Positions 27,901-46,826 of a stretch of 60,811 nucleotides of DNA are shown here, piece by piece. The position numbers and the translations under genes are program-made. The DNA comes from a virus, in IMG/VR virus record IMGVR_UViG_3300009049_000004, positions 1-60,811 of that record. One strand, given 5' to 3'. The notes beneath the pieces were generated by a model, which was not told the origin of the DNA, did no database searches, and saw only the letters and a list, made by a program, of their open reading frames with translations. Within the stretch, counting starts at the first letter, position 1, and each line of letters starts with the position of its first letter.

Positions 27901-30531
27901 AGAGTTGATAACAGAGATATTGAGCCAAATGATCATACTGCAGGCAGATTAACGTTTGGTTTCACATCTTGGAATAATAACAACACATCACCTTGGGCTG
28001 ATTATTTACACTTAAGATCTTATACAGATGCATCAGGTGGATCAGATAACCTTCTTATGTTTAAGAAGTCTGGTCGTGGAATGCGTTTATGGCAACAAAC
28101 TTTTAACAGTGGTACAGCGTATTCCGCGTATTCTGATGTTGCGATATATAACGCAAACCCTGGTAATACGCCTTTCTATGCATCAAGATACTATGATTCA
28201 AATAATACTGCATACTACGGTGATTTTGCATCAACATCCATTGTTAATATAATTAGGTATGCGTCTGGTGGTTATGCAGAGTTCCAAACAGCAGCCGGTA
28301 ATATTCGCGGATATATGCAAGCAACTGACGACAACGATGCGCACCTTAAAATTGCTACATCGGGCGGTGAAGATATTAGATTTACGGACGGCGGCCTATC
28401 CGGTGATTGGAATGTGATTATCAGAGGTGATGGTCAAACATTAATTCGAAGCAGATTAGACACTCCTATCATGTACGATAGAGATGATACTGGTTATTAT
28501 AGTAATCCAGCAGGAGCCTCCAACTTTAATACAAGTATTCGCGCAAACGAGGTTTATGCACGTAACTGGTTCAGAAATGATAACTCTGGCGAGGGTATGT
28601 ATAACCAAGCAACGGGTATGCATTGGTATTCAACAAATAATACCACTTGGAGAGCATACGGCGGACAGACTACTGTAAAAATAGAAATGAACACAGCTAG
28701 TAATACTTTAAGAGGTTCATTCTACGCAAACAATAGTGATGAAGTAGGTATCTTATCTCAAGATAATGGTTGGGCTTTACAAGCTACTAACTCTAAAGTA
28801 GATGCGCACCATAATTTCTATGCTCCTATCTTTTATGATAGAGACGATTCAAATTATTATGTAAATCCAGCCGGCGATGCAAGAATTTCTGGTACTGTTC
28901 AAGCAAACCGTTTTACACATAGAGATGCAGTATCACAAAACGATACTTTTGGACTATATTTTGCTGATAACGCATCTACTGCATACGCGATTTATCGTGA
29001 AAGCGGTGGTTGGAGCAGCCCATATCCAGATTTAAGAATTGCTTTCCATACTGGTATTAAGTTTGGTGCAAACTCTGGTTACCAAGGTATGCGTTTCTAT
29101 AATGACTATAACATGGTTACTCAGGTTATGTCAATCAATAATGGTAGTGACCCATTAGGTGCTAACGATGTTTATGTAAATAACTCATTGCAATCAGGCA
29201 ATTCATTAAGATCGCCTATTTTTTATGACTCGAACGATACAGCTCGTTACACGAACCCTGCAAGTACATCTGAAATGGGCACTATACGAGCCGATCGTTT
29301 TGATATGCGTGATCGTGGAGATTGGATTACCTTCTATGGTGATGATAGTACAAACCATGGTATTGCATCTCGTGGTTCTACAGGAACCGCAACTGACGAT
29401 ATTCGTATTAACACCTATGGTTCTCTTTTTATTAACCTAGACTCAAACAACAATAATACATCTGGAGCTGACTTCTATATTGGTCGCCATGGTAGTGCTA
29501 CTGGTACTATTGCTAATAGTGACTTGTTTAGAGTATACGGTGATGATAACTATGCTTACTCAGCATACAGTTTCAGAGCGCCTATCTTCTATGACTCAAA
29601 CGACACTGGTTATTATTGTAATCCGAACAGTTCATCTAATTTTGCTACATCTGTTCGTGCAAATGAATTCTATGCTCGTAACTGGTTCCGTAATGATAAT
29701 GGCGCAGAAGGTTTATATAACCAAAATAACGGTTGTCACTTCTATGCGAGATCGTCTCAATACTGGCACGCGACTGGTAATAATAACGCCAGTGCTATTA
29801 ATATGCAATTAAGATCAACATATGACGGCAATATTAGGATGTGGTTACACGGTGACTCATCAAGTTGGTGTGGATACTTAAATGATGGCGGTCAATGGAT
29901 GATTAGAACTAGAATGACAGATGGTTCGTCTCCAAACCACTGGTATTATGAGGATTCAAACACAACTTGGACCGGTAACCCTGGGAATGATAAAGGTAAA
30001 ATTGAATATCACTCAGATAGATTTTATATCGCTGCTGGTGGTAACTCAAATAGAATTTGTCAATTCCGTAGAGATGGTACTGATAAAGCTTATGTTAATA
30101 ACGATGGCGTTTATGTCGGTACAGCTACGTCAGCACAATGGGCTGACCTTGCAGAAAGATATAGCGCTGACGAAGTTTATGAGAATGGTACATTACTAGG
30201 TATGAACCTAGACGGTGAATCTGAAGGTACTCTTTATCAACCAGGAATGCCTATCTTAGGAGTTATTTCTACATCGCCTGGTGTTAAAATGAACGACATG
30301 GAAATCGAAGATGATAACTCTCTTGAAGGTAAAATGAACCCTTATATTGCTCTTAAAGGACGTATACCGTGTAAAGTAAATGGAGACGTTAAAAAGGGTC
30401 AATGGTTAATACCTGATATTGACGGTAAATGTAAAGGAATAGATTATGGTACTTCTGGTATAAATAGTCATGAAATTATAGGAATTGCGCTTAGCGACTC
30501 CGAAAATGGTGAAGTAGAGGTGAAAGTATAA
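21961..30531 (+). CDS. Giant distal-type tail fibre with C-terminal maturation domain
   Basis: This is about 2856 residues from the ATG at 21961. An upstream in-frame GTG at 21952 sits too close to the GGGGAG ribosome site at about 21943. At least seventeen copies of a unit of the form APxFYDSNDTxYYxxPxxxS, each followed by ~60-100 beta-rich residues, run along the protein. LDADLLDG motifs occur near the N-terminus. The C-terminus (WADLAERYSADEVYENGT, then GVISTSPG and ALKGRIPCKVNGDVKKG) resembles the C-terminal self-processing/chaperone domains of phage appendages (peptidase G2-type). I infer this from pattern and have not aligned it. The stop is one base before the next start, so it is coupled to the CHxS genes. 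Likely role: host-contact fibre. Confidence 0.82.
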   Translation: MANDKKFIVKNGLQSENNVLVGTTTDDGVNKLQVSGTTKLINSGSSVPITIENTGGINTPLINFEGGVGALQVKNTGSGDYSILNTSGANEIKFNDNTANGLVFIAGNTDQLKINTTVADFTNVPSINGVPVWYSGNDGAGSGLDADLLDGLNSIQFLRSDENDTFDGDLVITGDLTVQGTRTEIISETVLIADNIITLNSNFTASNPTENAGIEVERGTLTNSIFQWNETMDWWELNSAGTSLGRIITTADEGSGNGFDADTVDGLQASQFIRSDVNDVATGNLEFEGTVAIGNEAGSALLTMRGAGTNRVLSSDNGKIGFLDTGFAYNTYSDANYNWHVGNDVIAKRLLDADDNSYLVDPAGESQLNDVVLVGELYGHDGTAKDGSTYIDLQNNGTTGLIYFNVDGAGLHTTLSKDQMFVNKKVVAPRFEDSNDNGYYVVPSSVSRLSQIQIDDYIIHKGDTNTYFGFDTDDSYKLYINGVQQLAMSASSAVFTNDVEAARFVDSDNNSYFLDPASASTLNTIGIDSDLFHNGDTDTKLSFGTNQIDFNTGGTQRLSIANAASTFSHSVIAPNVYIDDYIYHTGDTPANTTYFGFSADDNFGVVLGGNGALLLTPTATTSIAYIYAPRFVDTDNSARYLDPSATSPLNNISLDGVLQNLNDPDTYLTFASDAVQFYTGNTLRAFINNSYLETTVSVRSPVYYGTSQIVDFLDLDAGAGSDALRVRGRLNIGGGTDVERFNDTTGNGGITISGYAGMGGTTNPSIQVSGANGARSLLSLNKIDIGGNPYSSKNNYFAEFLTDGAAAFSIRGDNSKNAYFIADADQKMVFMDSGANTRLAMDELGNTIIGNDSISFTQGSHTPVLASGAKTDGKLHVDGSIHINGADDALVIGGTTSTFLRDDELGFGSGGGFYMNDTTNLRVRNNKLLTSTGNASFAQYLDANDVLFYGDFASTSRMNNISLVGEVIHDGDTNTKIGFGTDQIIFTAGGTAQLNVYTTYAQATTDMRSPIFSDAGGTFKFEPNTSSAHRFTTPTGWLEIGSKVAGSTAFDTDRALFTFNKRVNFDGGISAADTNDDAYFNRYYDYGDNNYYIDAAGDSQLNTIDIDDFIRHRGDTGTYMGFSAAATYKVVIVGTERLNIDGNSADFNVDVYAPRYYDSNNTNYYVDPGSTSIVNNLRTNQIQMDGSSLIIDSPSGPKGTIMVTGERDSYAGYMIDNDWGFISSGATEMGLYNETDNEWSLLANRNNFTRLYSNNIHQIGAENGYGYAPNRMRAPIFEDSNDTAFYADLAGQSRLKSVKAGDSAIYNNTTYPLEVKSSQERMIVMQNTSADTNFPSILHNTRNSRATMALSFNNIGERFWFEENGNIQAYGAGIFGSLALNGGNEDLGLLKTYGSGLADLKMFDASDYWDKRVIQPMQGSENSATSSTGEYVKNGNGPFASSYALRTAGYRDFDSDYIPVQPGETIYVEQAVRNISGSGGLFYLGVRRYDKDKNPIASNDGIVYFGASAINNTSTSWTEYKGTHTLPTSHTPYNGSDGEGVRYVRVISLMNYSAGGATREFGPPILKRTNVQSDLVTPNLTVEVDLTVGGNATITGDLTVDDITADVITANRFADRGNTAYYVEPLTGAKVAGSWDWTNGSINNLNNLTFNDPGPNEGIKWNGGNLWQIYESPNDLATNTGGNLQFTSGANQGSMRLRVDTSGDVYAGRYHRAQRFYDTNNAAYYADPASTSVLNQVYINEYLRHSGDTDTYLRFIGADDMQLVAGGRQMLRMGEGTDPDRLRFVTDSNWTDSNGDWAMSRNVVVQGTHTAVNSSYAPIFYDYDDNAYYGNFAGTSLMNIVRANRFEVDGSTRYIDGISGQYGTIRVTGNTNGYAGYAINDDWVFMSSGAGMSGIYNDTNNEWSAQFLQNSDVKLYHNGGEKFSTNSGGATIYGRLIADYMADRNNTAYTVNPAGTSRFLDLDVDNPIGGNIAGYSENLLRVDNRDIEPNDHTAGRLTFGFTSWNNNNTSPWADYLHLRSYTDASGGSDNLLMFKKSGRGMRLWQQTFNSGTAYSAYSDVAIYNANPGNTPFYASRYYDSNNTAYYGDFASTSIVNIIRYASGGYAEFQTAAGNIRGYMQATDDNDAHLKIATSGGEDIRFTDGGLSGDWNVIIRGDGQTLIRSRLDTPIMYDRDDTGYYSNPAGASNFNTSIRANEVYARNWFRNDNSGEGMYNQATGMHWYSTNNTTWRAYGGQTTVKIEMNTASNTLRGSFYANNSDEVGILSQDNGWALQATNSKVDAHHNFYAPIFYDRDDSNYYVNPAGDARISGTVQANRFTHRDAVSQNDTFGLYFADNASTAYAIYRESGGWSSPYPDLRIAFHTGIKFGANSGYQGMRFYNDYNMVTQVMSINNGSDPLGANDVYVNNSLQSGNSLRSPIFYDSNDTARYTNPASTSEMGTIRADRFDMRDRGDWITFYGDDSTNHGIASRGSTGTATDDIRINTYGSLFINLDSNNNNTSGADFYIGRHGSATGTIANSDLFRVYGDDNYAYSAYSFRAPIFYDSNDTGYYCNPNSSSNFATSVRANEFYARNWFRNDNGAEGLYNQNNGCHFYARSSQYWHATGNNNASAINMQLRSTYDGNIRMWLHGDSSSWCGYLNDGGQWMIRTRMTDGSSPNHWYYEDSNTTWTGNPGNDKGKIEYHSDRFYIAAGGNSNRICQFRRDGTDKAYVNNDGVYVGTATSAQWADLAERYSADEVYENGTLLGMNLDGESEGTLYQPGMPILGVISTSPGVKMNDMEIEDDNSLEGKMNPYIALKGRIPCKVNGDVKKGQWLIPDIDGKCKGIDYGTSGINSHEIIGIALSDSENGEVEVKV

Positions 30532-30532
30532 T

Positions 30533-30946
30533 ATGCCATCATATGCAGATTTAAACACTAGCATGCAAGAAAAAGCTGGGGCACAGCTACGCACGTTTGA
30601 TAAAGGAATTACTATTACAATACAATCGTGGGTTCGTATTTGGGGGTTTGATAGCTCTTACGGATCATGGATGATTGTTAACGGCTATGGTTGGTATGGT
30701 AATAGTGCTCATTACCACAGATTTGAATATGTTAACGCAAATAACACATTGTTTGAAAACTATCTTGATGGCGGAATATATACCGGTGGTATTATCCGTT
30801 CACAAGATGTTATTGATTCAATTACTGATGTTGTTCGAAGAGCTGTTGATTTGGTCGAAGGCAGACTAACTAACAGAAGTATGACTGCACGTCCTTGTCA
30901 CCAAAGCTGTCATAGTAGTTGTCATACATCTAGAGGAAGAAGATAA
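30533..30946 (+). CDS. Fibre-associated protein with C-terminal CHxS triplet (paralogue A)
   Basis: This encodes 137 residues. The first ~115 form a conserved domain (QLRTFDK near residue 19, FDSSYG, GGI, then an amphipathic helix VVRRAVDLVEGR). The tail is three tandem CHxS tetrapeptides (CHQS, CHSS, CHTS) ending in RGRR. The neighbouring gene encodes a paralogue with the same tail. It starts one base after the giant fibre stop and overlaps the next ATG (TAATG). The Cys/His repeat could be a metal-binding tip, as in the HxH iron sites of T4 gp37, or a substrate for the radical SAM proteins that follow. The second is inference from gene order. No leader cleavage site is evident. Confidence 0.8.
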   Translation: MPSYADLNTSMQEKAGAQLRTFDKGITITIQSWVRIWGFDSSYGSWMIVNGYGWYGNSAHYHRFEYVNANNTLFENYLDGGIYTGGIIRSQDVIDSITDVVRRAVDLVEGRLTNRSMTARPCHQSCHSSCHTSRGRR

Positions 30947-31368
30947 TGGCTGCATCAGTATCTGACATTAACTCATATGTACAAACATATTCTGGCTCAC
31001 AACTAAGAACTTTTGATAAAACCGTCACATATACCGTAAATACGTATGTTCGGTATTATCGATTTGATAGCGCATATGGCGGTGCGTTGAGGCTTGACGG
31101 TGCTCAATATACTACAAACTCAACCTTTACTAGAAGATATCTTCATTACTCCTGGACCGGGCGCGATGCACTCTTTGACGGCTATTATGACTCTGGAATT
31201 ACTGCAGGTGGACTTATGTATGCTCAAGATATTGTAGATACTGTAGAAGATGCTGTAAGAAGAGCTGTTGATCTAATGGAGGAAAGAATCGTAAATACAG
31301 TCAAGACAATTAACGCGTGCCATGCTAGTTGCCATAGTAGTTGTCACACATCGAGAGGAAGACGCTAA
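30946..31368 (+). CDS. Fibre-associated protein with C-terminal CHxS triplet (paralogue B)
   Basis: This 140-residue paralogue shares with the upstream gene QLRTFDK, FDSxYG, the C-terminal helix (AVRRAVDLMEER) and the tail CHAS-CHSS-CHTS-RGRR. The middle of the domain is diverged. The tail is the best conserved part, with the last 12 residues identical in both proteins. That is the pattern expected of a functional peptide segment under strong selection. It overlaps both neighbours by TAATG, and the following gene is the first radical SAM protein. The same two alternatives apply as for paralogue A: a metal-coordinating fibre tip or a post-translationally modified tail. Confidence 0.8.
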   Translation: MAASVSDINSYVQTYSGSQLRTFDKTVTYTVNTYVRYYRFDSAYGGALRLDGAQYTTNSTFTRRYLHYSWTGRDALFDGYYDSGITAGGLMYAQDIVDTVEDAVRRAVDLMEERIVNTVKTINACHASCHSSCHTSRGRR

Positions 31369-32543
31369 TGTCTATGCAAAAATCATATTGTAAACAAATG
31401 AGATATTCTGGACCAGAAAGTCTAACACCATCTGATGCATCTAAATTCGATGTTCTTATTCAAATGGAAGTTTTAGCTGGGTGCGATCACGGTTGCTTAG
31501 GTTGTTTCGTAGATAAAAACATTAATCCTGATATGAACCAACAAATTATTGATAGAGCAAAGGAACTCGCTGATGGTGTAAAAAGAACTGGGCTTAATCT
31601 TAGAGAATTTGTCATAGGTCCAACAGATTTCTTTTCTGCAACTAACACGGAGTCAGTTTTAAATAACTCAGTAGTCCAAGAGATTATGAGAGAACACGTT
31701 GGCGCTCGGATTGCAGCACCTGCAAAATTTGATATCGCTACAATGGAAAGAGTAAAAGAAATCTATGCAATTCTTGATGACGAAGATAAGTATCGCCGTG
31801 ATATGATCATTGAGTTTATTATGCCAATCGGTAAAGTAGATCAGATGTTAAATGATGAAGAATACTTTAATAATGTTATGGAAAAAGTAGAATTCTTTAA
31901 AAATAATACACCAAAACAAATGGATTGGTCTTGGACACTACAGGCTTCTAACGTTGTTGGTAAGAAGATTGATAAAGAAACATATAACAAGATTGTTCAA
32001 AAATCAGTAAACGAATACAAGACTATTGTAGAAATGAACCCTGCTTTCTCAAGAGCGAGATCCCAATTGGTACAGCGTAGAAACCTGTTTGGATGGAACG
32101 ATTTCCTTGGTAGAGTTATTGATAAAGATAACGCACAAGAGACAGTTATGTCAATGGCTAATCTTTATTGTAACTCAATTAACTTTATTGGACTTACAAT
32201 CGTACCAGGAGAACACGGACCTACTACACATTTAAATGTAATGCTACACGAACAAGCATTCTTCCTTAATAATAAAAACTTAGACGTTACAGGTCTTACC
32301 TTCGAAGAAATATTAGATCGTAAAAACGAGCTAGTAACCAAGGGCATAAATAGATCAAGCAAAGTATCTGATTGCAACGGATGCCAATTTGCCGTAGCTT
32401 GTGCAAGTAGACTAATTTTTGAAGCTCAAGAAACTTTAAACGTCGATGGATGTGTTTTAAACAAAGATGTCCTTGCAGAATATAACCCATACGATTGGAC
32501 TTGGAACGACGATGCGATGGAAAAACTAGGAGTAACATCATGA
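31368..32543 (+). CDS. Radical SAM protein with C-terminal auxiliary Cys cluster (family 1)
   Basis: This is 391 residues from the ATG that overlaps the upstream stop (TAATG); an in-frame TTG at 31341 would lie inside the previous gene. The radical SAM cluster motif CxxxCxxC is at C39, C43 and C46 (GCDHGCLGCF). IGPTDFF follows ~40 residues later, where other radical SAM enzymes carry GGEP. The C-terminus has CNGCQFAVAC and a later Cys (VDGCVLNK), a four-Cys set fitting a SPASM/twitch auxiliary 4Fe-4S cluster as in peptide-modifying enzymes. Its place right behind the CHxS genes makes those tails the obvious candidate substrate, though this is not shown by sequence. The stop overlaps the next start (ATGA). 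Confidence 0.85.
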   Translation: MSMQKSYCKQMRYSGPESLTPSDASKFDVLIQMEVLAGCDHGCLGCFVDKNINPDMNQQIIDRAKELADGVKRTGLNLREFVIGPTDFFSATNTESVLNNSVVQEIMREHVGARIAAPAKFDIATMERVKEIYAILDDEDKYRRDMIIEFIMPIGKVDQMLNDEEYFNNVMEKVEFFKNNTPKQMDWSWTLQASNVVGKKIDKETYNKIVQKSVNEYKTIVEMNPAFSRARSQLVQRRNLFGWNDFLGRVIDKDNAQETVMSMANLYCNSINFIGLTIVPGEHGPTTHLNVMLHEQAFFLNNKNLDVTGLTFEEILDRKNELVTKGINRSSKVSDCNGCQFAVACASRLIFEAQETLNVDGCVLNKDVLAEYNPYDWTWNDDAMEKLGVTS

Positions 32544-33622
32544 TAGGTCAACACCTTTATTTTTTAAATAACAAAAAATATATTACAAACTCGACTAATC
32601 TCGAAACTGTATTTTTCGAGATGAACTCGTTTTATCACACGAAAACACCTAGAACAGTTTGTATGATTGAATCATCAATGCCAGACAGCCAAATCGTCCA
32701 GTATGATGTAAGAGTACGTGCTGATTCTATTCGCGCTAATGCCGGTGCTGATATTATTTTTAAACCTTGGGAAGAAGTTTGTACTAGTGAGTTTATCCAA
32801 AATAGCGAAAAATATATTCTTGTAGCTTGGGAAGAAGAAGATCAAATTCACATTCACGCAAGATATGCCGCTGGCTTATTAGCCGCTGCTGGTTTCTATG
32901 CAGATACTGATCACGACGTAAACACTATTGTTGGTGAATTTATGGAAAAAATCTTTGATTGTGATAGTATGTTCACGTATATGTCAGCGGCTCCTGCCGT
33001 TCAAGATATATCAAACACAGTTGAAACTATTTTGAATAATCCAGAAACTCCACCTTTTGATGTTATATATCAAAACGGTAAAAACTTTAGCTATGACTTT
33101 TTATTCTTTTTAAACGAATTCTATCCCTGCGCAGAAGTACAAGCTCTGTTAATCGAGAAGTTTACAATTCATAGCGCTGATATGGCACAAGATGTTATGG
33201 AACACTTTACGTCACGGCGCCACTACTTGGCATATATTCTTTCTGTAATTGATTGGATGAACAATAACGGTTTACCAGTAGATAAACAACAATTTGTAAA
33301 CGATGTTTATATGAAAGCTGCTAATAAAGGTAATTATCAAATTGCGTTTTATCAATTGGAAGAGTTATGGAATAGGGTAAAAGATAACGAAGCTTTCATT
33401 CTTGCACATACTGATAAAAGAGATAACACAAGAGATGGTTGGGAATTTTGGGATATGTATACCGAAATAAGCAACGTGTTCCCTATTGTTAAAAAAGTGC
33501 TTGAGCGTAGTTTTGATATGGATAATCTAACAGAAGACTTGAGGTTGATTAACACTGATGTTCAGTTCTTCTCTAAAAGACAAAATAGAATTCCATATTT
33601 GATACACAAATACACATTATAG
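32540..33622 (+). CDS. Unknown protein inside the radical SAM operon
   Basis: This is 360 residues from the ATG overlapping the upstream stop (ATGA); the longer TTG-started frame at 32495 lies within the previous gene. The N-terminal ~115 residues look mixed alpha/beta. The rest is largely helical with an acidic, aromatic-rich composition. There are a few scattered cysteines but no CxxxCxxC, no signal peptide and no membrane segment. I do not recognise a family. Being sandwiched between radical SAM genes in an overlapping run, it may be a partner, substrate-binding or scaffold protein for them. That is inference from context. Confidence 0.7.
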   Translation: MIGQHLYFLNNKKYITNSTNLETVFFEMNSFYHTKTPRTVCMIESSMPDSQIVQYDVRVRADSIRANAGADIIFKPWEEVCTSEFIQNSEKYILVAWEEEDQIHIHARYAAGLLAAAGFYADTDHDVNTIVGEFMEKIFDCDSMFTYMSAAPAVQDISNTVETILNNPETPPFDVIYQNGKNFSYDFLFFLNEFYPCAEVQALLIEKFTIHSADMAQDVMEHFTSRRHYLAYILSVIDWMNNNGLPVDKQQFVNDVYMKAANKGNYQIAFYQLEELWNRVKDNEAFILAHTDKRDNTRDGWEFWDMYTEISNVFPIVKKVLERSFDMDNLTEDLRLINTDVQFFSKRQNRIPYLIHKYTL

Positions 33623-33632
33623 GATGTAATAA

Positions 33633-34538
33633 ATGAATGATAATGATACAAACAACTTGAATCCAGACAGAGAATTCGAAGATCACAAACTTTCAGAGCG
33701 TGAGAAGAATTTTAAAGCTTATACTTTACCTCTTGCTCCTCAAGATTTAGTTGCGATATATAAACAAAAAGAAGAAGATAAAGACTTTATTCTCTATGTA
33801 GACTACTATCAAACTAAACAGAAATTAAGCCCTAAGCATATTATTATATATTTGGCAAACACCAACTTTAAGGCTGGCTTTACTTTCTTAGATGAAGAAT
33901 TAATTACAGAATATATTAAATCAGATTTTATGATTGATTGTCCAATTCTTGTGCGTATGGTTTCTATTATAGTCAGAATGAGATTGCATTATGATATCAA
34001 TGGTGCTGAAAAGAAATTAACTATTTTATTCCCAGAAGAAAAAATACATCAATTTATTGAACAGAACATTGAATTAGTCGATGAACTAATCGAAACTATT
34101 AGAGATTCTGTGCCGTGGGCTATGGTTAATTTGCATGAAAACTTGACTGACGAAGCCAAAAAAGAAGAGAAAGAACTTACAAATTTTATCGATAATATTG
34201 AGGTTTATGATAAACCATCGAATTGCGGACCTAACGTTGCACGATTTATTACAGAAGCTTGGGACGGGTTTTTATGTATTATTCATAATAAGGGTGTAAG
34301 CTCGACTTATAATAAAACAGTTTATAATGAACAACCAAAGTACTTCGGTAAAGATTTATACTACATTATGAACGAAACTAGGGTTATAGATCAGATTATG
34401 GCATTGTTCCCATCATGGTTTTGGGCTAAAATCGAAACAGTAGATATAAACGCGCTATTAGAAGAAACTGAGGGCGAACATATCGATAAATTTGTCGACG
34501 GTCTTGAAGATAAGTTCAATGATAGTCCATCTAAATAA
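33633..34538 (+). CDS. Unknown protein inside the radical SAM operon
   Basis: This encodes 301 residues starting at an ATG preceded by AGGATG. The sequence is mainly helical and acidic, with a hydrophobic patch near residues 105-120 (ILVRMVSIIVRMRLHYDI) that is too charged for a clear membrane helix. The C-terminus is very acidic. Only two cysteines are present and no known motif. It overlaps the next radical SAM start by 20 bases. Function unknown. Co-transcription suggests it serves the same process as its radical SAM neighbours. Confidence 0.7.
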   Translation: MNDNDTNNLNPDREFEDHKLSEREKNFKAYTLPLAPQDLVAIYKQKEEDKDFILYVDYYQTKQKLSPKHIIIYLANTNFKAGFTFLDEELITEYIKSDFMIDCPILVRMVSIIVRMRLHYDINGAEKKLTILFPEEKIHQFIEQNIELVDELIETIRDSVPWAMVNLHENLTDEAKKEEKELTNFIDNIEVYDKPSNCGPNVARFITEAWDGFLCIIHNKGVSSTYNKTVYNEQPKYFGKDLYYIMNETRVIDQIMALFPSWFWAKIETVDINALLEETEGEHIDKFVDGLEDKFNDSPSK

Positions 34539-35541
34539 TTCTTATGCTGGCTATTATACATATGATGAAGATAAAAGTCCAACAAATATTGATTTTCTCA
34601 GAACAGAAATAAATTTAGATATCTTACACGGATGTTCTCAACAATGTCCTGGATGCTTTATACCAAGAAAAAACTTAACAAAAGCAGATAACCTAGAAAC
34701 CTTATATAATCTTCTTATAGAAGGCGCGTATTATCCTGACGAAATAACAATCGGCCCAACTGATATATTCGATGCTGAAAATTTCAATGAAATCATGAAT
34801 CATCCTTATATGGAAAAAATATACGGAATATCTGCAGTAGGATTTACATCCACTTTAACTCAACCTTATCAATTAATAAGAGATAAACTTGATAAGATAT
34901 GGAGTTTATATAACAATATAGCGAGAATACCGGATATTGATTTTAAAATTGTTTTAGATATAAACAAATATTTAGATGGAGAATTAGATGATTGGTATCG
35001 TAAACTTGCGATGTTTAAACATGGTTCTGTGCAATTTAGAGTTAACTATCATAAAGATATATTCAAACGCATTTCATACAATGAATTAGCTCAAAAAGTA
35101 TTCGATGACTTTAACGCGCCAGTTATAATCACGCCTTCTTTCTTAACTGATAGAAATGCAAGAGGTAAAGTAGAACAACACCTTGCAAACTTTAGACGTG
35201 AAATGGTTGAACAAAACATAGATAAAAAATGGCTAAACTTATATACATTTTTTGATGCGAAGTTTAACGGTTATGGTTGTCAAAATTATAGTTTTTATAA
35301 TAACAAACTCTATATTAATCCATTCTTATATGATGTGATTATTCAACGTACACCTCAGTTTGAAACAAATATGGATGCTAATACTTTATACGACAACATA
35401 GAATATGCACAACAAGTTGATGACTGTAATGGATGTGAATATATGATGAGTTGTGCAGAACGCAACGTTCATTTGTATATGGAGTCGAGAGGATTAGACA
35501 CTTGCGTCGCATTGAAAGAATACATGTATGCCTCTAATTAA
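34519..35541 (+). CDS. Radical SAM protein (family 1, paralogue 2)
   Basis: This is 340 residues from ATG 34519; a TTG at 34492 is in frame but lies deeper in the upstream gene. The cluster motif is at C39, C43 and C46 (GCSQQCPGCF), followed by IGPTDIF. The C-terminal auxiliary set is CNGCEYMMSC and a later Cys (LDTCVALK). The order and spacing match the 31368 gene, so these are paralogues. It belongs to the overlapping operon and the next start lies within its last 14 bases. The likely chemistry is SAM-dependent radical modification of a peptide or protein. The substrate is unknown. Confidence 0.85.
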   Translation: MIVHLNNSYAGYYTYDEDKSPTNIDFLRTEINLDILHGCSQQCPGCFIPRKNLTKADNLETLYNLLIEGAYYPDEITIGPTDIFDAENFNEIMNHPYMEKIYGISAVGFTSTLTQPYQLIRDKLDKIWSLYNNIARIPDIDFKIVLDINKYLDGELDDWYRKLAMFKHGSVQFRVNYHKDIFKRISYNELAQKVFDDFNAPVIITPSFLTDRNARGKVEQHLANFRREMVEQNIDKKWLNLYTFFDAKFNGYGCQNYSFYNNKLYINPFLYDVIIQRTPQFETNMDANTLYDNIEYAQQVDDCNGCEYMMSCAERNVHLYMESRGLDTCVALKEYMYASN

Positions 35542-36685
35542 GAATAATCTATACTATGAGATGACCACAGAGACTCAGACAAAGCCTGTATCAGCGGTTA
35601 AGATACAGCTAGACGTTTTAGACGGATGCCACCATAAGTGTCCTGGATGCTTTGTACACAGACGTGGTAACTCAAGTGATAAAAATCAGTTAGAGAATGC
35701 AAAGCAATTTATCAGAAGTATTACAGATCAAGGCATACTTGTTGATGAAATATTAATTGGTCCTACTGACTTTTTAGCATCAGAGAATTTCTTTGATGTC
35801 ATGCCTGATTTATTAGATATTATAAATGAGAACTCTCCTATATTAGCGTTTGTTTCTACATTAATTGATGGAGACATAGAAGGATTTTGCGAGTTTATTA
35901 CAGACTATGTAAATTTAGATACTGAGATAGAAATAGGTATTGCGTCAAATCCTTATAAGTTTTTCGATAAAGACTATTTACAACACATCTCTGATATGTT
36001 ATATTATATAGATCAAAATCTAGAACATGAAGTAACTTATACTTTTGTTGTTAATATAAGAGATTACGATCTAGATTATTCTGAACTTCACAGATACGCG
36101 GTAGAAAAGTTTGATACAATCCTAGATTTTATTCCAAGCGTATCGCGTTCTCATAAAGCAAAAATCATTTTAGAAACTCTTGATAAGTTTAATGATTACT
36201 TTAATGTCTTAGCCAAAGATACTAATCTTAATAACATTATGGTTGATCATTCTCATGCTGGAATTAATTATACTGTTTTAAACTATAAAAGAGGAGAGTG
36301 GTATCTTAGTCCGTTTATGTATGAAAATATGGCAATATACCATGAAATGTTTAAGATAGATTCTTTTGAAGATGTCGTACCAATGGTAGAAGACCAGATA
36401 CGTAGAGCAAAAGGAACTGAATGTGAAAATTGCGAGTTGTTTTTTTCTTGTTATAATAGAAAAATTATCTTATTAAGAGATTATTTAGGAGTCGATAGAT
36501 GCATTGCTCCTAAAAAGAATATGTTGAACAATATACACAATTATAATGGCCCTGCACAAGAAATGTATAAATGGGAAGGATATTCTGTAGAGAATGACAA
36601 AAAAGGTTATCGCAAAAAGTTTTTAGTCACCACAGATGATGATCCAGAATTAGAAAGAATTAAGGATATATCTTATGTTAAATAA
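35528..36685 (+). CDS. Radical SAM protein (family 1, paralogue 3)
   Basis: This encodes 385 residues with the cluster motif at C34, C38 and C41 (GCHHKCPGCF), then RRGN and IGPTDFL. The C-terminal auxiliary cysteines are CENCELFFSC plus DRCIAPKK. Compared with the other paralogues it has an extra ~45-residue charged tail. The start is the ATG within the previous gene's end; an alternative ATG at 35561 is possible, but no better ribosome site is seen there. It overlaps the next gene by 11 bases. It is closest in style to the next gene, with which it shares the RRGN segment after the cluster motif. Confidence 0.83.
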   Translation: MPLIKNNLYYEMTTETQTKPVSAVKIQLDVLDGCHHKCPGCFVHRRGNSSDKNQLENAKQFIRSITDQGILVDEILIGPTDFLASENFFDVMPDLLDIINENSPILAFVSTLIDGDIEGFCEFITDYVNLDTEIEIGIASNPYKFFDKDYLQHISDMLYYIDQNLEHEVTYTFVVNIRDYDLDYSELHRYAVEKFDTILDFIPSVSRSHKAKIILETLDKFNDYFNVLAKDTNLNNIMVDHSHAGINYTVLNYKRGEWYLSPFMYENMAIYHEMFKIDSFEDVVPMVEDQIRRAKGTECENCELFFSCYNRKIILLRDYLGVDRCIAPKKNMLNNIHNYNGPAQEMYKWEGYSVENDKKGYRKKFLVTTDDDPELERIKDISYVK

Positions 36686-37832
36686 TGATTGGAAAGATAT
36701 AGTAAGTGGAGGCGGAATGGGTGAAGAGTTCGCTTCTATTGATAGTATGAAACAATATAAAATTCAAGTTAACCTAGAAATATTAGAAGGTTGCTCTTAT
36801 ATGTGTCCTGGTTGTTTTGTGAAACGTCGCGGAAACTGGCATCCAAAATCAATAACAATGTTTCATTCTTTGGCTTACGAATTAAAAGATAGAACAGACA
36901 TCGTATTAGATGATATTGTGATAGGACCTACTGATTTCTACGGAGCTGAAAACTTAGATGAGATTATCAATAATTTAAAATTATCTGACGCCATTAAGAT
37001 GATGCCAAAAGATAATAGAAACATTCAACACAATTGTTCTATACTTGGTTCGTTATCTGAGAAAGATATTGAAGGAAAGATAAGAGATATTGAGAAATCG
37101 CCTTTAGGAGAAGCAGTAGAAGCCTGGGATGTTCAGATCGCTTTGGATTTAAATCGATTAATGAATGACCAAGAATATATCGATGCGCTTGATGAAAGGA
37201 TAGAGACATTTAAAAACAGCTCTTTAAACTTCGAAATATCAATGGCTACTAATATCGTTCAAGGTGTAGAAGAAATACTATACCCAGCTATTGATTTTGT
37301 TCGTTCGAAATACGAAACTGTTATCGAAGTATTACCTTCTGTAGTTAGATCATTTAACCATAGTGCAAAGCACGGTGATAAACTATTTGAATGGAATGAT
37401 ATGTTAACTCGATTGGCATTAGATACGCATCGTTTTAAAAATAAGTTTCACTTCTTACAGGGAGATGTATCGCATAAAGCATTTAATTATTCAGTTATAA
37501 GTATTCACAAAGGAAACATGTATTTGTCTCCTTTCATATACGAAAATGCTCAGATACACACAGAAGATTTTCTAGTATCTGATGGTTGGATGTGGTTACC
37601 AGATGCTGATATATCTGATTTCATACTAGATAGAAAGAATGAAATTGTCAATAGTCAAATTGAAAATAGTCTTGAAAAAGAATGTGGAACATGCAAATAT
37701 CTTAACATATGCGCGAACAGAATGGTGCCATTAATAATGGATACAGTATTTAATGGAAGAAAGGAATGCATTCTTAATAAAGATGTTATTGCTTTATTTG
37801 ATGATGAGGTTTATCATGGGAATAGTTACTAA
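36675..37832 (+). CDS. Radical SAM protein (family 1, paralogue 4)
   Basis: This encodes 385 residues. The cluster motif is at C40, C44 and C47 (GCSYMCPGCF), then KRRGN and IGPTDFY. C-terminal auxiliary cysteines are CGTCKYLNIC and KECILNKD. The N-terminus carries a short Gly-rich segment (SGGGMG) absent from the other members. Overlaps on both sides (11 and 17 bases) show tight coupling. The RRGN and auxiliary-cluster spacing suggest a recent common origin with the upstream gene. Each copy may act on a different residue or substrate. The reaction cannot be named from sequence. Confidence 0.83.
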   Translation: MLNNDWKDIVSGGGMGEEFASIDSMKQYKIQVNLEILEGCSYMCPGCFVKRRGNWHPKSITMFHSLAYELKDRTDIVLDDIVIGPTDFYGAENLDEIINNLKLSDAIKMMPKDNRNIQHNCSILGSLSEKDIEGKIRDIEKSPLGEAVEAWDVQIALDLNRLMNDQEYIDALDERIETFKNSSLNFEISMATNIVQGVEEILYPAIDFVRSKYETVIEVLPSVVRSFNHSAKHGDKLFEWNDMLTRLALDTHRFKNKFHFLQGDVSHKAFNYSVISIHKGNMYLSPFIYENAQIHTEDFLVSDGWMWLPDADISDFILDRKNEIVNSQIENSLEKECGTCKYLNICANRMVPLIMDTVFNGRKECILNKDVIALFDDEVYHGNSY

Positions 37833-38835
37833 TAACCTAAGAGCTGCTAAAGCTGATAAAGATTTTGATCTATCATTCTCTGAAGGACATGAAATTAAAG
37901 TACAGTTTAATTGCGAAGTATTATCGGGGTGTGAGTTTAAATGTAAAGGTTGTTTTGTAAACAAACTTGGTTCCAACATGGGATCTTATGATAGACTTAA
38001 TAACGCTATAGATTTATTTAATGCAAACGGTTACAGAGTGTCAACCATTAATATTGGGCCTACTGATTTATTTGGTAATAATAATGTTATCGAGTTATTA
38101 AAAGACGAAACATTTCGAGAGTGTTTAAGCAAGGTTTCTACTATACAATTCGTAACAACCCTAACAAGCATTTCGCAAGAAGTTATTGAACTACTTAACA
38201 GCATCCCTAAAATAGATGGATTTTTATATGATTGTAATATAGCTTTACAACCTCCTGTAAATTGGGATTGGGTAGAAGAGCGATTAGACCTTCTGAATGG
38301 ATTTACGGATGATCTAAATTATTATATGGTTTATAACATGGGTAATGATGACGAGTACAATTCTAAAGTGCTTGAAATGTCAGAACTTGTTGAGGATAGG
38401 TTTGACTCAATCCTTACATTAAACCCGTCATTCTTTAGAGCACCAAAATCTAAGGTTCAAAAACATCTTATTGAGAAATGGAAGAACTATGACTTCTCAG
38501 ATAATCTTATGCCTAAAACATTTATTGACCAAGCGCAAGGTGGTTCTTTAGAGTTAAACTATACTTACTGCAACGAACGTTTCTTTTGGACGCCATTCGT
38601 ATATGACATCGCTTTAATAGGTACTGATGAATTCCAAGTTAAAGATGAGAACGATATTGAATCATGGACTCAAGTAAAAGAAAATAAGTTTATGTCACAG
38701 TTGTCTTATTCAAGTAAAACTGATAACTGCGCCTCTTGTAAAAACCTAATGACATGTATTGATAAAGGCGTATTAAGTTATATGGAACATCATTCACTTA
38801 CGGGCTGTACGTTTCCTGGAGTAATAACGACCTAA
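37816..38835 (+). CDS. Radical SAM protein (family 1, paralogue 5)
   Basis: This is 339 residues from ATG 37816, which has an AGG-containing ribosome site just upstream. The frame extends to 37753 but that lies inside the previous gene. The cluster motif is at C39, C43 and C46 (GCEFKCKGCF), then IGPTDLF. The C-terminal auxiliary set is CASCKNLMTC and TGCTFPG, ending soon after. It is the last gene of the plus-strand operon. Its 3' end overlaps by 42 bases the 3' end of the minus-strand operon, with no room for a separate terminator. Confidence 0.83.
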   Translation: MGIVTNNLRAAKADKDFDLSFSEGHEIKVQFNCEVLSGCEFKCKGCFVNKLGSNMGSYDRLNNAIDLFNANGYRVSTINIGPTDLFGNNNVIELLKDETFRECLSKVSTIQFVTTLTSISQEVIELLNSIPKIDGFLYDCNIALQPPVNWDWVEERLDLLNGFTDDLNYYMVYNMGNDDEYNSKVLEMSELVEDRFDSILTLNPSFFRAPKSKVQKHLIEKWKNYDFSDNLMPKTFIDQAQGGSLELNYTYCNERFFWTPFVYDIALIGTDEFQVKDENDIESWTQVKENKFMSQLSYSSKTDNCASCKNLMTCIDKGVLSYMEHHSLTGCTFPGVITT

Positions 38836-39507
38836 GAATGTTCTTGGAAACGAATCATTAATCTTACCCCATTGTTCCATGCTATCTACAAATATATTTT
38901 TAAAAGTAACATCGATATCTTCCATTGGATAAATCGCCATCAGATCGTTACCGTAATTTAATCTAACTTCGTATGTTTCGTCTTTTAAAGGAAACAATAA
39001 GAATACATTAATCGCATGTTGATCATAGAAATTAAGAACGCCTGGTGCTACAAGTATCCCATGCTTGCGTAAATCTTCACTGTAATGAAATTCACAATTC
39101 ATAAAATCTACTGGCTTCTTAGCTTTTAAATACCAAGGAGCTTCTAATTTCACGACAGCATATCCCTTATAAAAATCATCGCCATACTGTCTTTGTTCAT
39201 GCACACCAGTACTGACTTGATGAGAATGCAACGGACTTGCAGACGAAACCTTTCCGTTTGGTTCAACTCTAAAAATCATATCGGACCACAATCTCATTAT
39301 AATAGCTTTTTGCATATATTGTGTAATTCCAGGACAAGCCTTTACAGTTGGGGTTGGAACCATAATGCCTGACTTTGAATTATAAACAGTGTACATTGTC
39401 GACAATTTTTTCCACCATGAAGGCTTTCTAATTTTAGATGTCCATTTAAAATTTTCGAAAACGCTTTTATCGTAAGTGTAAGCTTCAATCTCTAGTTTTT
39501 TTCTCAT
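38794..39507 (-). CDS. Conserved phage protein of unknown function, last in minus-strand operon
   Basis: This is 237 residues from ATG 39507; the frame extends six bases to a TTG. The N-terminus is basic. The middle contains CPGITQYMQKAIIMRLW, then a polar stretch with several His (PLHSHQVSTGVHEQRQ) and LVAPGVLNFYDQHAINVFLLF, suggesting a beta-barrel core. It resembles conserved hypothetical proteins of marine phages in overall style, but I cannot name a family. It overlaps the upstream radical SAM gene by 23 bases. Clustered His residues could bind metal. This is only a suggestion. Confidence 0.7.
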   Translation of the reverse strand: MRKKLEIEAYTYDKSVFENFKWTSKIRKPSWWKKLSTMYTVYNSKSGIMVPTPTVKACPGITQYMQKAIIMRLWSDMIFRVEPNGKVSSASPLHSHQVSTGVHEQRQYGDDFYKGYAVVKLEAPWYLKAKKPVDFMNCEFHYSEDLRKHGILVAPGVLNFYDQHAINVFLLFPLKDETYEVRLNYGNDLMAIYPMEDIDVTFKNIFVDSMEQWGKINDSFPRTFLGRYYSRKRTARK

Positions 39508-40621
39508 AATCAAATCCTGTAATTAAGTTCTGTCCAGTTTTTTCCATATAGTTAAACCACATTCTCATGATGCAGTCAGGTAAGTCTCGTTCTCTATTCT
39601 TCCAATCCCATTGGGTATAACATCTAAATCCACATTTGTTCCACCACTTACAAGATAAACAACCATTCTCGTCCATATATGCTTGCATCATACCAGCATT
39701 ATCTTTGGGTTTATATTCTGTATTAAAATCTCTCTGATCATATCTATCCCATCTACAATTAGATGTAGAATTATCGGGGAATATCGTAACCTTATTTAAA
39801 GCCAAGCAATGCATATGGTTACTATCATTATATATAAGATCTTTTATAGGATTAATATCGGGATAGTTATGATATACAAATTTAAGAAATTCTAAGTATT
39901 CACTATCAGATGGAATCATATAATCATAACCACGATCTGGAATGTAATCATCAAAGTAAAAGTTATCAAACTTTTCATATAGATAGTGAAAATACTCATC
40001 ATCGTCTGCCATAAACTTTTTTATTGATAAAGTAGTAGCAACCATATTAATTGATACGATATAGTCGGCAAAGTATTCTATATTTTTAGCATATGGACCT
40101 TTTGTTGGTCGCCCATCAAAGTCATATGAACATATAATATGTGAAGGAATTGCTTCAGCGTTTAGGTCGTCGAGCAGTCGCTGAACTCTGTCTCGTTTAC
40201 TAAATTGAAACGATGTTACCCACACAACTTTAATTTTTTGTTTATGTTCGTCAAATATCTTTTTAATTGCTACAAGGAAATCAAAGTAAACAGGGTAAGC
40301 CCATTCTGATATTCTATCTTGGAATAACTCACCGCCAACCATATTGATTTGGATTATATCAACTCTGCCTTTCATCTTAATGACATGTTGTTCAACTAAA
40401 TCCAATTTAGAGAATATCTCTTCCCTACTCAATCCTACGGTAGATTTTTTATCATGATGGCAGAACGAACAATTGAGGTGACAGTTTTCAAATAAAGTCA
40501 ACTCAATCTCAGCGATATCAGGTCGTTTAGTTTCTAATAATGTTTTTGTTATTTCAAAGTCCAAATAACATTTCCTCTTTATAGTATTCGTAGATATCGG
40601 GAACCATACCAAGTTTTTCAT
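39485..40621 (-). CDS. Radical SAM protein with SPASM-like C-terminus (minus cluster, fourth radical SAM)
   Basis: This is 378 residues if started at ATG 40621. A TTG at 40564 with a well-placed AGAGGAAA ribosome site and only 11 bases of overlap is a good alternative start. The cluster motif is C47, C51 and C54 (CHLNCSFC), with MVGGELF as the GGE-type motif. Later cysteines (CLALNK, NCRWD, CLSCKWWNKCGFRC and DCIM) fit a SPASM-type domain with auxiliary clusters. It differs from the plus-strand family, which has GPTD. The target is unknown. It lies in an operon with three other radical SAM genes. Confidence 0.83.
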   Translation of the reverse strand: MKNLVWFPISTNTIKRKCYLDFEITKTLLETKRPDIAEIELTLFENCHLNCSFCHHDKKSTVGLSREEIFSKLDLVEQHVIKMKGRVDIIQINMVGGELFQDRISEWAYPVYFDFLVAIKKIFDEHKQKIKVVWVTSFQFSKRDRVQRLLDDLNAEAIPSHIICSYDFDGRPTKGPYAKNIEYFADYIVSINMVATTLSIKKFMADDDEYFHYLYEKFDNFYFDDYIPDRGYDYMIPSDSEYLEFLKFVYHNYPDINPIKDLIYNDSNHMHCLALNKVTIFPDNSTSNCRWDRYDQRDFNTEYKPKDNAGMMQAYMDENGCLSCKWWNKCGFRCYTQWDWKNRERDLPDCIMRMWFNYMEKTGQNLITGFDYEKKTRD

Positions 40622-40979
40622 TAAACTCTAGTTGGAATAGTATCTCGTCGTAAGTTTCTTTGTCTTGCCAATATGGAACAAAGTGCGGATCATTATTAAA
40701 TAGTAACTCAGGATCGTTAAGTGCATCGAAAAACGGTTCGTTAAAATCCCTGTTTAACCAATGAGCATAACATATAGCAACTACATATGATTTAGCTGGG
40801 TAAATCCATTCGTCTACATACTCTCTGAAGTGTGTTAGAGCAAACTCAACCGTAAGGTCAGGTTGCCAATTAATCTCCACGTCAGTCAGATCATCTTTGA
40901 ATAAAGATGCTGTCAAATGATATGCGCTTTGTCTAGCTTTCCATTCTTTCATAATATTCCAACAATCCTTTATATCCAT
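40554..40979 (-). CDS. Small acidic protein between radical SAM genes, unknown
   Basis: This encodes 141 residues, rich in Trp, Tyr and acidic residues, mostly helical by composition. It has only two Cys and no motif I recognise. It overlaps the upstream radical SAM gene by 47 bases and the downstream one by up to 68, so it is firmly part of the operon. Small proteins in such positions can be substrate-recognition partners of radical SAM enzymes, but I see no RRE-like winged-helix signature. Function unknown. Confidence 0.65.
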   Translation of the reverse strand: MDIKDCWNIMKEWKARQSAYHLTASLFKDDLTDVEINWQPDLTVEFALTHFREYVDEWIYPAKSYVVAICYAHWLNRDFNEPFFDALNDPELLFNNDPHFVPYWQDKETYDEILFQLEFNEKLGMVPDIYEYYKEEMLFGL

Positions 40980-41847
40980 TACAACTATTAGTCAAATCTT
41001 TAACATATCGGTAATGTTCTGTTAAACAATTACCATAATATTTACACGTCTTACATATTTCGCTTAGATTGTTCTCAGGTTCTTCCCTTGCCCACTTCTT
41101 GTACTCATAATATGTTTTATATTCTTTGAAGTATTCCCTATCATATTTATCGAACTCCAATACCCCAAACTTACCAGATGGAGTAATATACACATGATCA
41201 TTACTAAAAGCATCATACTCTTTATCTATGCTTCTCCATATATTATCCATATTCTGAAAATTAAACTTTTTCTCTGTTTTTGCTTCGTCAAACTTAATAA
41301 CAAAATCTTCAAAGTCTTTGTGTGTAACAGGATGTGCATTTGCTTGGTTTATTGAGTAAGGTTTAATTTCTACAGACTTAATATTAGATACCATATTAAG
41401 AGTGAAGATCATAAACTCTACATCCATCTCTAATACTTTTGGAGAGGCCAATATTAATACAGATAAATCCTTATTGGCGTTCATCATATTATTTAAAACA
41501 TGCTGTTCTTTTTCTCTGGCATGGAAATCATATGATACAGATAATGTTACATCCTCATCTCGAAAGAAGTCTGGGAACGCAGACAAATTAGTATTGATAT
41601 TGATAGGACCTTTGTAATAATTACGTATTACTTTCTTTAATGAATAATAATATTCTGGTGATAGTAAACCAATCTCACCGCCGTATAGATCTACGTGCCC
41701 TATTTGATCATCTACTTGACTTAAAGAATGATCTAACCATAAAGGCGTTATCTTATGTCTATCGTTTAATTGTGCTGGCGTTAAATAACAAAAATCACAA
41801 CTGAAGTTACAATAGTAGGTGGGATTAATTGATAGATTCATCAACAT
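40933..41847 (-). CDS. Radical SAM protein, compact (minus cluster, third)
   Basis: This is 304 residues from ATG 41847; a second ATG at 41841 is equally possible. The cluster motif is C13, C17 and C20 (CNFSCDFC), close to the N-terminus, followed by LYGGEIGLL. The C-terminus has CKTCKYYGNC and a later NSCNGYKG, suggesting one auxiliary 4Fe-4S cluster. This resembles twitch/SPASM radical SAM enzymes acting on peptides. The start overlaps the previous gene's stop by 23 bases. A residue stretch resembling SPASM loops (ITPSGKFGVLEFD) precedes the last cysteines. Confidence 0.82.
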   Translation of the reverse strand: MLMNLSINPTYYCNFSCDFCYLTPAQLNDRHKITPLWLDHSLSQVDDQIGHVDLYGGEIGLLSPEYYYSLKKVIRNYYKGPININTNLSAFPDFFRDEDVTLSVSYDFHAREKEQHVLNNMMNANKDLSVLILASPKVLEMDVEFMIFTLNMVSNIKSVEIKPYSINQANAHPVTHKDFEDFVIKFDEAKTEKKFNFQNMDNIWRSIDKEYDAFSNDHVYITPSGKFGVLEFDKYDREYFKEYKTYYEYKKWAREEPENNLSEICKTCKYYGNCLTEHYRYVKDLTNSCNGYKGLLEYYERMES

Positions 41848-43881: not shown

Positions 43882-44296
43882 GTGATAACATTAGTGCCTT
43901 TTCATAATTTAACGCTCTGTGCGGTGTTCCTGCTTCTATGAACAGAGTTTCATTTTTAGATAAAGAAATCTCTTTACCTTCAACTTCCATGATCTTAGTT
44001 CCTTCGACGCATTCTATAATAACATCAATTGGATCAGTATGTACATCAAAAGATGCACCGTTTTCCTGATTATAAAAAACATGAACAGTTCCGTTATTAA
44101 TGCCTAAAGGTTTTTCAAACTGTTCTACTTTAATGGTAGCTTTATTTGCTAATAAAACCGTAGTTTCTCCAAGATAAGCAATGTATTCTGATTGTTTTAT
44201 GTAATGCTGATTTCCATTTTCATCTATATGAGATACGTCGTGGTTATTAAAGCATTCTTCTGTTAATAAGAAATTTTCAAATTGGTCAAATGTCAC
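43841..44296 (-). CDS. Cupin-like protein, first gene of minus-strand operon
   Basis: This is 151 residues from a GTG start (44296) preceded by GGAG at about seven bases. The C-terminal ~80 residues have a cupin look: FDVHTDPIDVIIECVEG, then a second motif SLSKNETLFIEAGTPHRALN, ending with a strand. The HTD in the first motif and H in TPHR could bind a metal. It is the first gene after a minus-strand late promoter and overlaps the first SPASM gene. Cupins beside radical SAM genes may be oxygenases, sugar-binding proteins or regulators. The role here is unknown. Confidence 0.75.
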   Translation of the reverse strand: MTFDQFENFLLTEECFNNHDVSHIDENGNQHYIKQSEYIAYLGETTVLLANKATIKVEQFEKPLGINNGTVHVFYNQENGASFDVHTDPIDVIIECVEGTKIMEVEGKEISLSKNETLFIEAGTPHRALNYEKALMLSHGIHDSETLNRIR

Positions 44297-44364: not shown

Positions 44365-44391
44365 ATTGTATATATTATGAGGAGATTGATT

Positions 44392-46823: not shown

Positions 46824-46826
46824 ATT

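Follow-up and report, generated by a model that had tools for sequence, protein, structure and literature searches.

In a 60,811-base IMG/VR virus record (IMGVR_UViG_3300009049_000004, positions 1 to 60,811; hereafter the window), which carries T4-like sheath, tube, portal and terminase genes, five radical S-adenosylmethionine (SAM) genes with a Gly-Pro-Thr-Asp (GPTD) motif, R1 to R5, are accessory members of a larger conserved cassette. The important finding is a conserved tailed protein, A, together with its enzyme battery: two copies of A (A1 and A2) precede R1, and the cassette further contains X2, four radical SAM genes with GGE or GGD motifs (S1 to S4), the small protein m2, a cupin and a 2-oxoglutarate (2OG)-Fe(II) oxygenase (Table 1). 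A sequence-only reading of this DNA had described the five genes with GPTD and Cys motifs at 31368-38835, and all five are confirmed as intact open reading frames (ORFs) on the plus strand; the tailed proteins, the four further radical SAM genes and the cassette as a whole were absent from it. We consider it probable (roughly 60%) that the cassette performs a maturation like that of ribosomally synthesized and posttranslationally modified peptides (RiPPs), in which several radical SAM enzymes would modify a fibre-associated surface protein and the GPTD clade would provide ancient, specialized tailoring.

The tail of A is nearly fixed, and its genomic coupling to the enzymes was observed with several queries. 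Because a tail query necessarily returns tails, loci were collected with S3 alone (scans of the best 80 of 335, 317 and 317 relatives, giving 236 partly overlapping loci, with one count per distinct slot). The slot from S4 to X2 or S1 in these loci held the strict tail in 83 of 87 distinct slots and variants in the other four (CHSSCHYSCHSSCHGDGPGNGGGV, CHSSCHGSCHGSRARR, CHSNCHINRSRR and CHTSCHSNCNCNRGRR), and the strict tail stood anywhere in the stretch in 129 of the 236 loci. Scanning with a profile of the R family returned 59 viral loci; 48 of these extend as far as the slot ahead of the enzymes, and every one has A there; the other 11 begin downstream of it. The DNA pattern of the tail alone matched at least 119 viral stretches and 27 genome stretches, and stretches lacking an ORF of at least 60 amino acids (aa) ending in the tail (4 of the 119 and 12 of the 27, among the matches listed) were left out. 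Among the matches listed, an S gene was seen in 103 of 125 tail loci with at least 1.5 kb on one side (viral, 91/110; genome, 12/15), and the remaining 22 had R genes (18 loci), X2 only (1) or neither (3). CHxxCH within the last 40 residues occurred in 146 of the 6,766 ORFs of the S3-found loci, and those read were A or S4 proteins.

The tail reads CHxSCHxSCHTSRGRR in A1 and A2, and across cassettes it usually consists of three Cys-His-x-Ser repeats followed by Arg-Gly-Arg-Arg (RGRR). Its Cys and His codons are freely synonymous (at the first Cys-His pair of 101 distinct A genes, TGT/TGC are used 59/42 times and CAT/CAC 52/49 times), so that the peptide, not the DNA, is what is kept. Serine at the last place of repeats 1, 2 and 3, which the query did not impose, was found in 95, 67 and 83 of the 101 genes, respectively. 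The bodies that carry the tail range from about 100 to 350 residues and differ between lineages. Residues 64 to 137 of A1 match phrog_35144, and a BLAST search with A2 against phages gave no match, probably because the tail is of low complexity and the body variable.

The cassette is present in jumbo phages (Atu_ph07, FLC8 and DT01) and in marine T4-like phages; named carriers are the Burkholderia phages FLC6, FLC8 and SURPRISE13, Pseudomonas phage pPa_SNUABM_DT01, Agrobacterium phage Atu_ph07 and Sinorhizobium phage Phosso. Among S1 to S4, S3 has the highest identity in FLC8 (57%) and DT01 (55%). The GPTD enzymes are accessory to the cassette. Complete cassettes, defined by the presence of A and S1 to S4 and counted once per distinct S3 set (n = 121), contained no R gene in 61 cases, one in 11, two in 30, three in 5, four in 1 and five in 13, the low counts being lower bounds, as stretch ends may cut genes off; Atu_ph07 and Phosso, both with long flanks, have no R genes. 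An earlier tally, with one cassette per distinct A set, gave 49 cassettes, 20 without R genes and 13 with five. One enzyme per residue, as the sequence-only reading had suggested, finds no support here: the tail is much alike with no, one or two, or at least three R genes, an argument against assigning each tail residue its own R enzyme. The idea that R number follows the tail was set aside; the x positions lean toward Thr and Tyr in cassettes with at least three R genes, but these cassettes are related. At tail position -6, Thr is found in 17 of 30 A proteins from cassettes with at least three R genes and is not among the five commonest residues of the 60 without R. The viral loci L077 and L101 each have four R genes, of differing clades, with the tails CHSSCHSSCHASRGRR and CHTNCHNNCHSSRGRR.

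The R proteins form a family with a motif of its own. Each of R1 to R5 starts with ATG and has CX3CX2C, then GPTD 32 to 37 residues beyond the last cluster Cys (somewhat nearer than the 40 or so first reported) and a C-terminal CX2CX5C with one further Cys. Library scans showed no radical SAM match for the two further ORFs lying among them, 32540-33622 and 33633-34538. Of 274 family members longer than 250 aa, 260 had a readable motif, 12 lacked CX3CX2C in the called ORF and 2 were unrecognizable in the motif; the 260 read GPTD (232), GPVD (8), LPTD (6), APTD (4), SPTD (3), QPTD (3), GATD (2) and APVD (2), so GPTD is not a product of chance. Of 210 R members, 4 lacked a readable cluster, and none of the other 206 had GGE, GGD or GGA in the motif stretch. 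The auxiliary CX2CX5C is present in 266 of 272 R proteins and the full CX2CX5CX3C in none; the latter is found in 173/177 S1 and 194/194 S4 proteins and in no S2 or S3. The CxxxR at the third Cys may resemble the sulfatase site.

R1 shares only 18 to 25% identity with the other four, so the description of the five as paralogous rests on common motifs, gene adjacency and one profile. In a FastTree phylogeny of 84 R proteins, the marine R1 to R5 form five clades (support, 1, 1, 1, 0.64 and 1), between which copies of Bacteriovorax type and from other phages branch. Because of these five separate clades with other lineages between, R1 to R5 look like old specialists rather than fresh duplicates, in agreement with the divergence noted earlier.

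Library searches gave weak matches. The Pfam Radical_SAM model listed only R3 (E = 0.0008) and R5 (E = 0.14) among the five, both under cut-off, and the best score (R3, 20.1 versus a gathering threshold of 29.5 bits) reflects the limited sensitivity of the model, not a property of the proteins. Of R1 to R5, the SPASM model TIGR04085 listed only R4 (14.1 versus 27 bits). An NrdG/activase identity, the top NCBIfam name for R1 and R3, was rejected at about 20 bits versus a cut-off of 126. An R profile against PDB sequences returned a DUF262 protein (two entries, E = 0.002, outside the cluster stretch) and GDGT-MAS (E = 0.18), both uninformative. Among R1 to R5, PADLOC found only a Cas4-like Cys stretch, in R4, and pVip viperin models matched S1 to S4 weakly and partially at the radical SAM core and R1 to R5 not at all.

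The AlphaFold2 model of R3 (predicted local distance difference test [pLDDT], 88; predicted template modelling score [pTM], 0.86) has a partial (beta/alpha)6 barrel, by DSSP and fold matches, in which strand 2 comprises residues 59 to 66 and Pro-Thr-Asp residues 67 to 69, directly after the strand, at the usual place of GGE. Its best solved match in VIA-align is anSMEcpe (Z = 15.9, 295 aligned residues, 4.5 Å), also ranked first by Foldseek, followed by ChlB (14.9), 5why (14.3; a sactipeptide maturase that we take to be CteB), TigE (13.4) and SuiB (13.1). The likeness to these five lies in the R3 fold (Z = 13 to 16) and the Cys-rich C-terminal domain, and the R proteins differ from them by P-T-D for G-G-E and at 9 to 14% identity. 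Of the SPASM Cys set, they carry only the CX2CX5C...C part; judged by this set, they would have one auxiliary cluster only, presumably the outer one, if anSMEcpe is a guide to the ligands left.

GPTD is predicted to occupy the GGE place, because the R3 model and the spacing agree on it (medians from cluster to motif, 37 in R and 40, 37, 34 and 39 in S1 to S4) and one of three readable profile alignments agrees exactly: in hhalign of R with S1 (probability 93) the Asp of PTD falls on the Glu of GGE, the motif columns are displaced by gaps for S2 and S4, and no alignment of R with S3 was obtained. We infer that R1 to R5 are radical SAM enzymes of SPASM-like type that modify peptides or proteins and carry PTD for GGE, Asp keeping the acidic side chain. 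The distinct subfamily proposed in the sequence-only reading is therefore upheld by the weak library matches, the position of GPTD and its presence family-wide, and no search put the five in a characterized subgroup with known substrate. The altered SAM contact that it proposed is milder than claimed, as Asp is invariant and GGD is the motif of S3 in this very cassette. The loss of GGE and part of the auxiliary Cys (CX2CX5CX3C, 0/272) might suggest degenerate, noncatalytic scaffolds that assist the GGE enzymes, but an alignment of 84 rows shows no change in the three cluster Cys or the Asp and very little in the four auxiliary Cys, and five separate clades are retained across phages, which makes such a role very improbable.

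By motif, the nearest named system is His-Xaa-Ser (Hxs; HxsA, HxsB and HxsC; TIGR03979, TIGR03978 and TIGR03977), which, to go by its model names, pairs a protein of His-x-Ser repeats with radical SAM maturases, and by sequence scores the cassette appears to fall outside it. S4 matched HxsB (33.2 versus 370 bits) and S2 and S3 matched HxsC (S3, 24.5 versus 267.9 bits) weakly and far under the cut-offs. The HxsA model gave no hit with A1, A2 or five of six further A proteins; the variant with the tail CHSSHSSHSSHSSRGRR, from the Bacteriovorax order, matched weakly (E = 0.009, 16.0 versus 121.65 bits). Unlike Hxs, the cassette has a tail that is usually Cys-His-x-Ser with RGRR, four to nine radical SAM genes and a phage tail-fibre or pilin-chimera context. 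Like the precursor of a RiPP cluster, A is ribosomally made, has a conserved C-terminal core and is encoded beside the enzymes, and no RiPP leader-binding domain, leader protease or exporter was recognized among the scanned cassette proteins. Our best reading is that the cassette works like a RiPP maturation system, though it is not filed as one. Whether A is a RiPP precursor in the full sense, with an N-terminal leader cut off and the modified tail released as a toxin, signal or antibiotic, can be judged from the same data: a short C-terminal core with adjacent radical SAM enzymes is the RiPP layout and one variant weakly matches HxsA, but no protease or exporter family was recognized among the proteins scanned, the bodies of about 100 to 350 residues vary by lineage and the A genes of the window sit with a tail fibre, and we regard release as improbable.

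The cassette is chromosomal in Bacteriovorax-like genomes: that of G136 lies on contig 1, of 4,153,408 bases, and the loci L214 to L219 are flanked by housekeeping-type genes (by eye). S3 was found in 13 of 129 Bacteriovorax-order genomes, 12 of which have an A ending in RGRR. Five have the strict tail (in G006 and G009, A and S3 are on different contigs), and seven have forms invisible to the tail query, namely, CHSSHSSHSSHSSRGRR in G018, CHSNHCSHSNHGSRGRR in G089, CHGNFPPPCHGSRGRR in G116, G117, G121 and G122, and CHTNVPTPPPCHASRGRR in G136; every one of these bacterial forms keeps a first C-H and ends with S-R-G-R-R. The His-Ser-repeat tails with one or two Cys at L466 (G089, 9061-9669) and L467 (G018, 4310-4918) are a possible bridge to the His-Xaa-Ser family. 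An S74 tail-fibre chaperone protein (over cut-off) adjoins 9 of 11 bacterial loci of at least 14 kb (L215, L216, L218, L466 and L475 to L479), and in six of these nine the protein scores above the prepilin N_methyl cut-off as well; the shorter locus L208 has a pilin/S74 homologue as well. Beside the pilin/S74 chimera at the same nine loci is a protein of about 185 to 210 aa, several copies of which end in HWVKIK or similar; five that were tested had no Pfam match.

In the window, A1 starts 1 nucleotide (nt) after fib, a giant tail-fibre-like gene, and A2 overlaps A1 and R1 by 1 nt each. The genes from fib to R5 form one tightly packed plus-strand operon, with intergenic gaps of +1, -1, -1 and -4 nt (fib-A1-A2-R1-X1) and of +10, -38, -14, -11 and -8 nt (X1-X2-R2-R3-R4-R5), computed with R2 from 34501 and R5 from 37825 (likelier ATG starts, 34519 and 37816). 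In Atu_ph07, A is gp170; according to the report on this phage, coding sequences 170 to 215 are one of three large clusters encoding most virion proteins found by mass spectrometry (PMC6102473), and the tail sheath, gp140, has the same number in both sources. For gp170 this is no more than a hint that it is among the virion proteins. Liquid chromatography-tandem mass spectrometry of RP31 virions is also published (PMC5468394). In Bdellovibrio, S74 fibres serve prey contact (PMC10769870). The adjoining fibre gene, the S74 neighbours and these Bdellovibrio fibres together suggest that A may serve host or prey contact. The MAT fibres of B. bacteriovorus resemble the Bacteriovorax-like case as predator fibres with phage-type S74 chaperone domains and differ in that the pilin-type N terminus and the adjoining radical SAM cassette are features of the Bacteriovorax-like loci; the word "radical" is absent from the main text of that paper (PMC10769870).

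We predict the following mechanism. The conserved cassette (A, X2, S1 to S4, m2, cupin and oxygenase) would act on A as its substrate. S1 to S4 may act on the C-terminal CHxS repeats, cross-linking or oxidizing Cys, His or Ser, with RGRR as the putative recognition end, and the GPTD enzymes would add lineage-specific changes to the tail or body of A. A itself would be a fibre-associated virion surface protein or, in bacteria, would sit on a pilus-like fibre, and the product may be a chemically assembled tip that contacts host or prey.

Alternatively, the tail could be an unmodified metal-binding or oligomer-capping motif on a virion protein, with the enzymes acting elsewhere in a host-recognition island (on a surface sugar, a fibre protein, a nucleotide or a cofactor). 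CH repeats suit metal binding, and the neighbouring segment 45789-48814 holds genes that look glycan-related by eye. Pelagimyophage host-recognition clusters also hold lipopolysaccharide genes (PMC7029224). Yet the tail and the enzymes remain coupled in jumbo phages, in marine T4-like phages and on bacterial chromosomes, with differing neighbours, the closest R3 folds are largely peptide or protein maturases, and the His-Ser variants with one or two Cys keep the enzymes, so that this explanation seems unlikely, though less so than release of the tail.

Several observations weigh against a RiPP-like maturation of A. The AlphaFold2 model of A1 (pLDDT, 81; pTM, 0.63) had no convincing solved match (Foldseek best E = 0.47; VIA-align Z = 3.7 at 7.5 Å over 81 residues), an absence that does not show a new fold. 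Profile similarity of R to S3 and S4 is weak, and action of the R enzymes on A is argued from adjacency only, about half of the cassettes showing no R gene. Bacterial occurrence is patchy (13/129); G075 has no A on its 27.9-kb contig, where S3 lies at the very end. Among the bacterial loci of at least 14 kb, a pilin/S74 homologue is absent at L220 and doubtful at L221. Of the 59 phage cassettes whose sequence extends 4 kb upstream, only 27 have a window-type fibre domain in the 6 kb ahead of them, and detection of gp170 in the virion is deduced from a cluster edge in PMC6102473.

More broadly, and more tentatively, the cassette may represent an unrecognized class of surface-tip maturation, in which four to nine radical SAM enzymes build a fixed Cys-His-x-Ser structure with an RGRR end on fibre-associated C termini, in tailed phages for host contact and likewise in Bacteriovorax-like bacteria, with the GPTD enzymes swappable. 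Such a structure would be cross-linked or oxidized, perhaps metal holding or reactive, and in bacteria would be borne on pilin/tail-fibre chimeras. If so, virions would bear radical-chemistry modifications on host-contact proteins, of which we found no description in the literature searched, and phages would have the same device in common with relatives of predatory bacteria. With the GPTD enzymes, a new clade of SPASM-like type would be at hand, and a natural substitution for studying the SAM-contact motif.

Phage radical SAM clusters appear in the literature, in the portions available, as listed extras without function. Pelagimyophage host-recognition clusters hold radical SAM genes (PMC7029224) and a T4-like marine virus has 12 of them (PMC5332604); matched by description, these probably correspond to the radical SAM genes described here and likewise lie next to tail fibres, and the accessible text of the two papers gives their presence and names neither a substrate or tail nor a GPTD clade or cassette. 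The papers on FLC6 and S13, as available in part, list cupin, radical SAM and oxygenase genes without function (PMC8066314 and PMC11898562) and likewise mention no tail, substrate or GPTD clade. Neither the tail nor the GPTD clade is named in the titles and abstract openings found, bioRxiv preprints and most subscription journals lying outside the coverage. A candidate substrate with a near-fixed 16-residue tail makes the purpose of these genes testable in cultured phages (Atu_ph07, FLC6/FLC8, DT01 and Phosso).

Table 1. Genes and tail segments of the cassette in the window; cassette counts refer to the 121 complete cassettes
Feature	Position	GPTD motif	Strand	Basis or remark
fib, giant tail-fibre-like protein	21952..30531		+	Match of the C-terminal portion to PHROG tail fiber 19602, E = 3e-7
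A1, 137-aa tailed protein, proposed substrate	30533..30946		+	Ends CHQSCHSSCHTSRGRR, then stop
A1 tail, 16 residues	30896..30943		+	Sequence
A2, 140-aa tailed protein, A1 paralogue (46%)	30946..31368		+	Ends CHASCHSSCHTSRGRR
A2 tail, 16 residues	31318..31365		+	Sequence
R1, GPTD radical SAM	31368..32543	31617-31628	+	Motifs; cluster CDHGCLGC
X1	32540..33622		+	No Pfam match; 19/121 cassettes, all 19 with at least 2 R genes
X2	33633..34538		+	120/121 cassettes
R2, GPTD radical SAM	34519..35541	34753-34764	+	Motifs; cluster CSQQCPGC
R3, GPTD radical SAM, modelled	35528..36685	35759-35770	+	Motifs; cluster CHHKCPGC
R4, GPTD radical SAM	36675..37832	36924-36935	+	Motifs; cluster CSYMCPGC
R5, GPTD radical SAM	37816..38835	38056-38067	+	Motifs; cluster CEFKCKGC
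S1, GGE radical SAM	39485..40621		-	phrog_1802; family CX2CX5CX3C
m2, small conserved protein	40554..40979		-	phrog_20737; 110/121 cassettes
S2, GGE radical SAM	40933..41847		-	Family CX2CX5C without X3C
S3, GGD radical SAM	41825..42862		-	Pfam Radical_SAM, 36.8 bits, over cut-off
S4, GGE radical SAM	42853..43881		-	Family CX2CX5CX3C
Cupin	43841..44296		-	Cupin_2, 27.0 bits, just below cut-off of 27.2; 99/121 cassettes
2OG-Fe(II) oxygenase, divergent	44377..44961		+	PF13759, E = 9e-14, over cut-off; 99/121 cassettes

The S4 protein of the window has CHSDCHQ within its own auxiliary Cys motif, like the tail on which it may act, and the S4 of Atu_ph07 has CNGDCQQ at the place of the marine CHSDCHQ. 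Within the cassette of SURPRISE13, the two genes of gp77-78 (L213, 12855-14032) are annotated in that record as dihydrofolate reductase.

Elsewhere in the window, 10493-15187 holds collagen-like GxQGxQG repeats with an end that resembles an S74 chaperone domain by eye. The segment at 45789-48814, between the cassette and the structural genes, holds glycan- or nucleotide-sugar-looking genes, including an FkbM-like methyltransferase and a cytidylyltransferase (all named by eye). The closest DNA is that of marine T4-like phages, e.g., Pelagibacter phage Mosig and Prochlorococcus phage P-TIM68 (about 67% across one-third of the query), and among terminases the closest come from the Sinorhizobium phages phiN3 and phiM12 (57%). 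Three contigs of the Rhodobacteraceae bin Water_Bin34 (L195, L199 and L207), probably binned phage, carry marine-type cassettes, one with an R1 99% identical to that of the window, and give a weak hint of a Rhodobacteraceae host.

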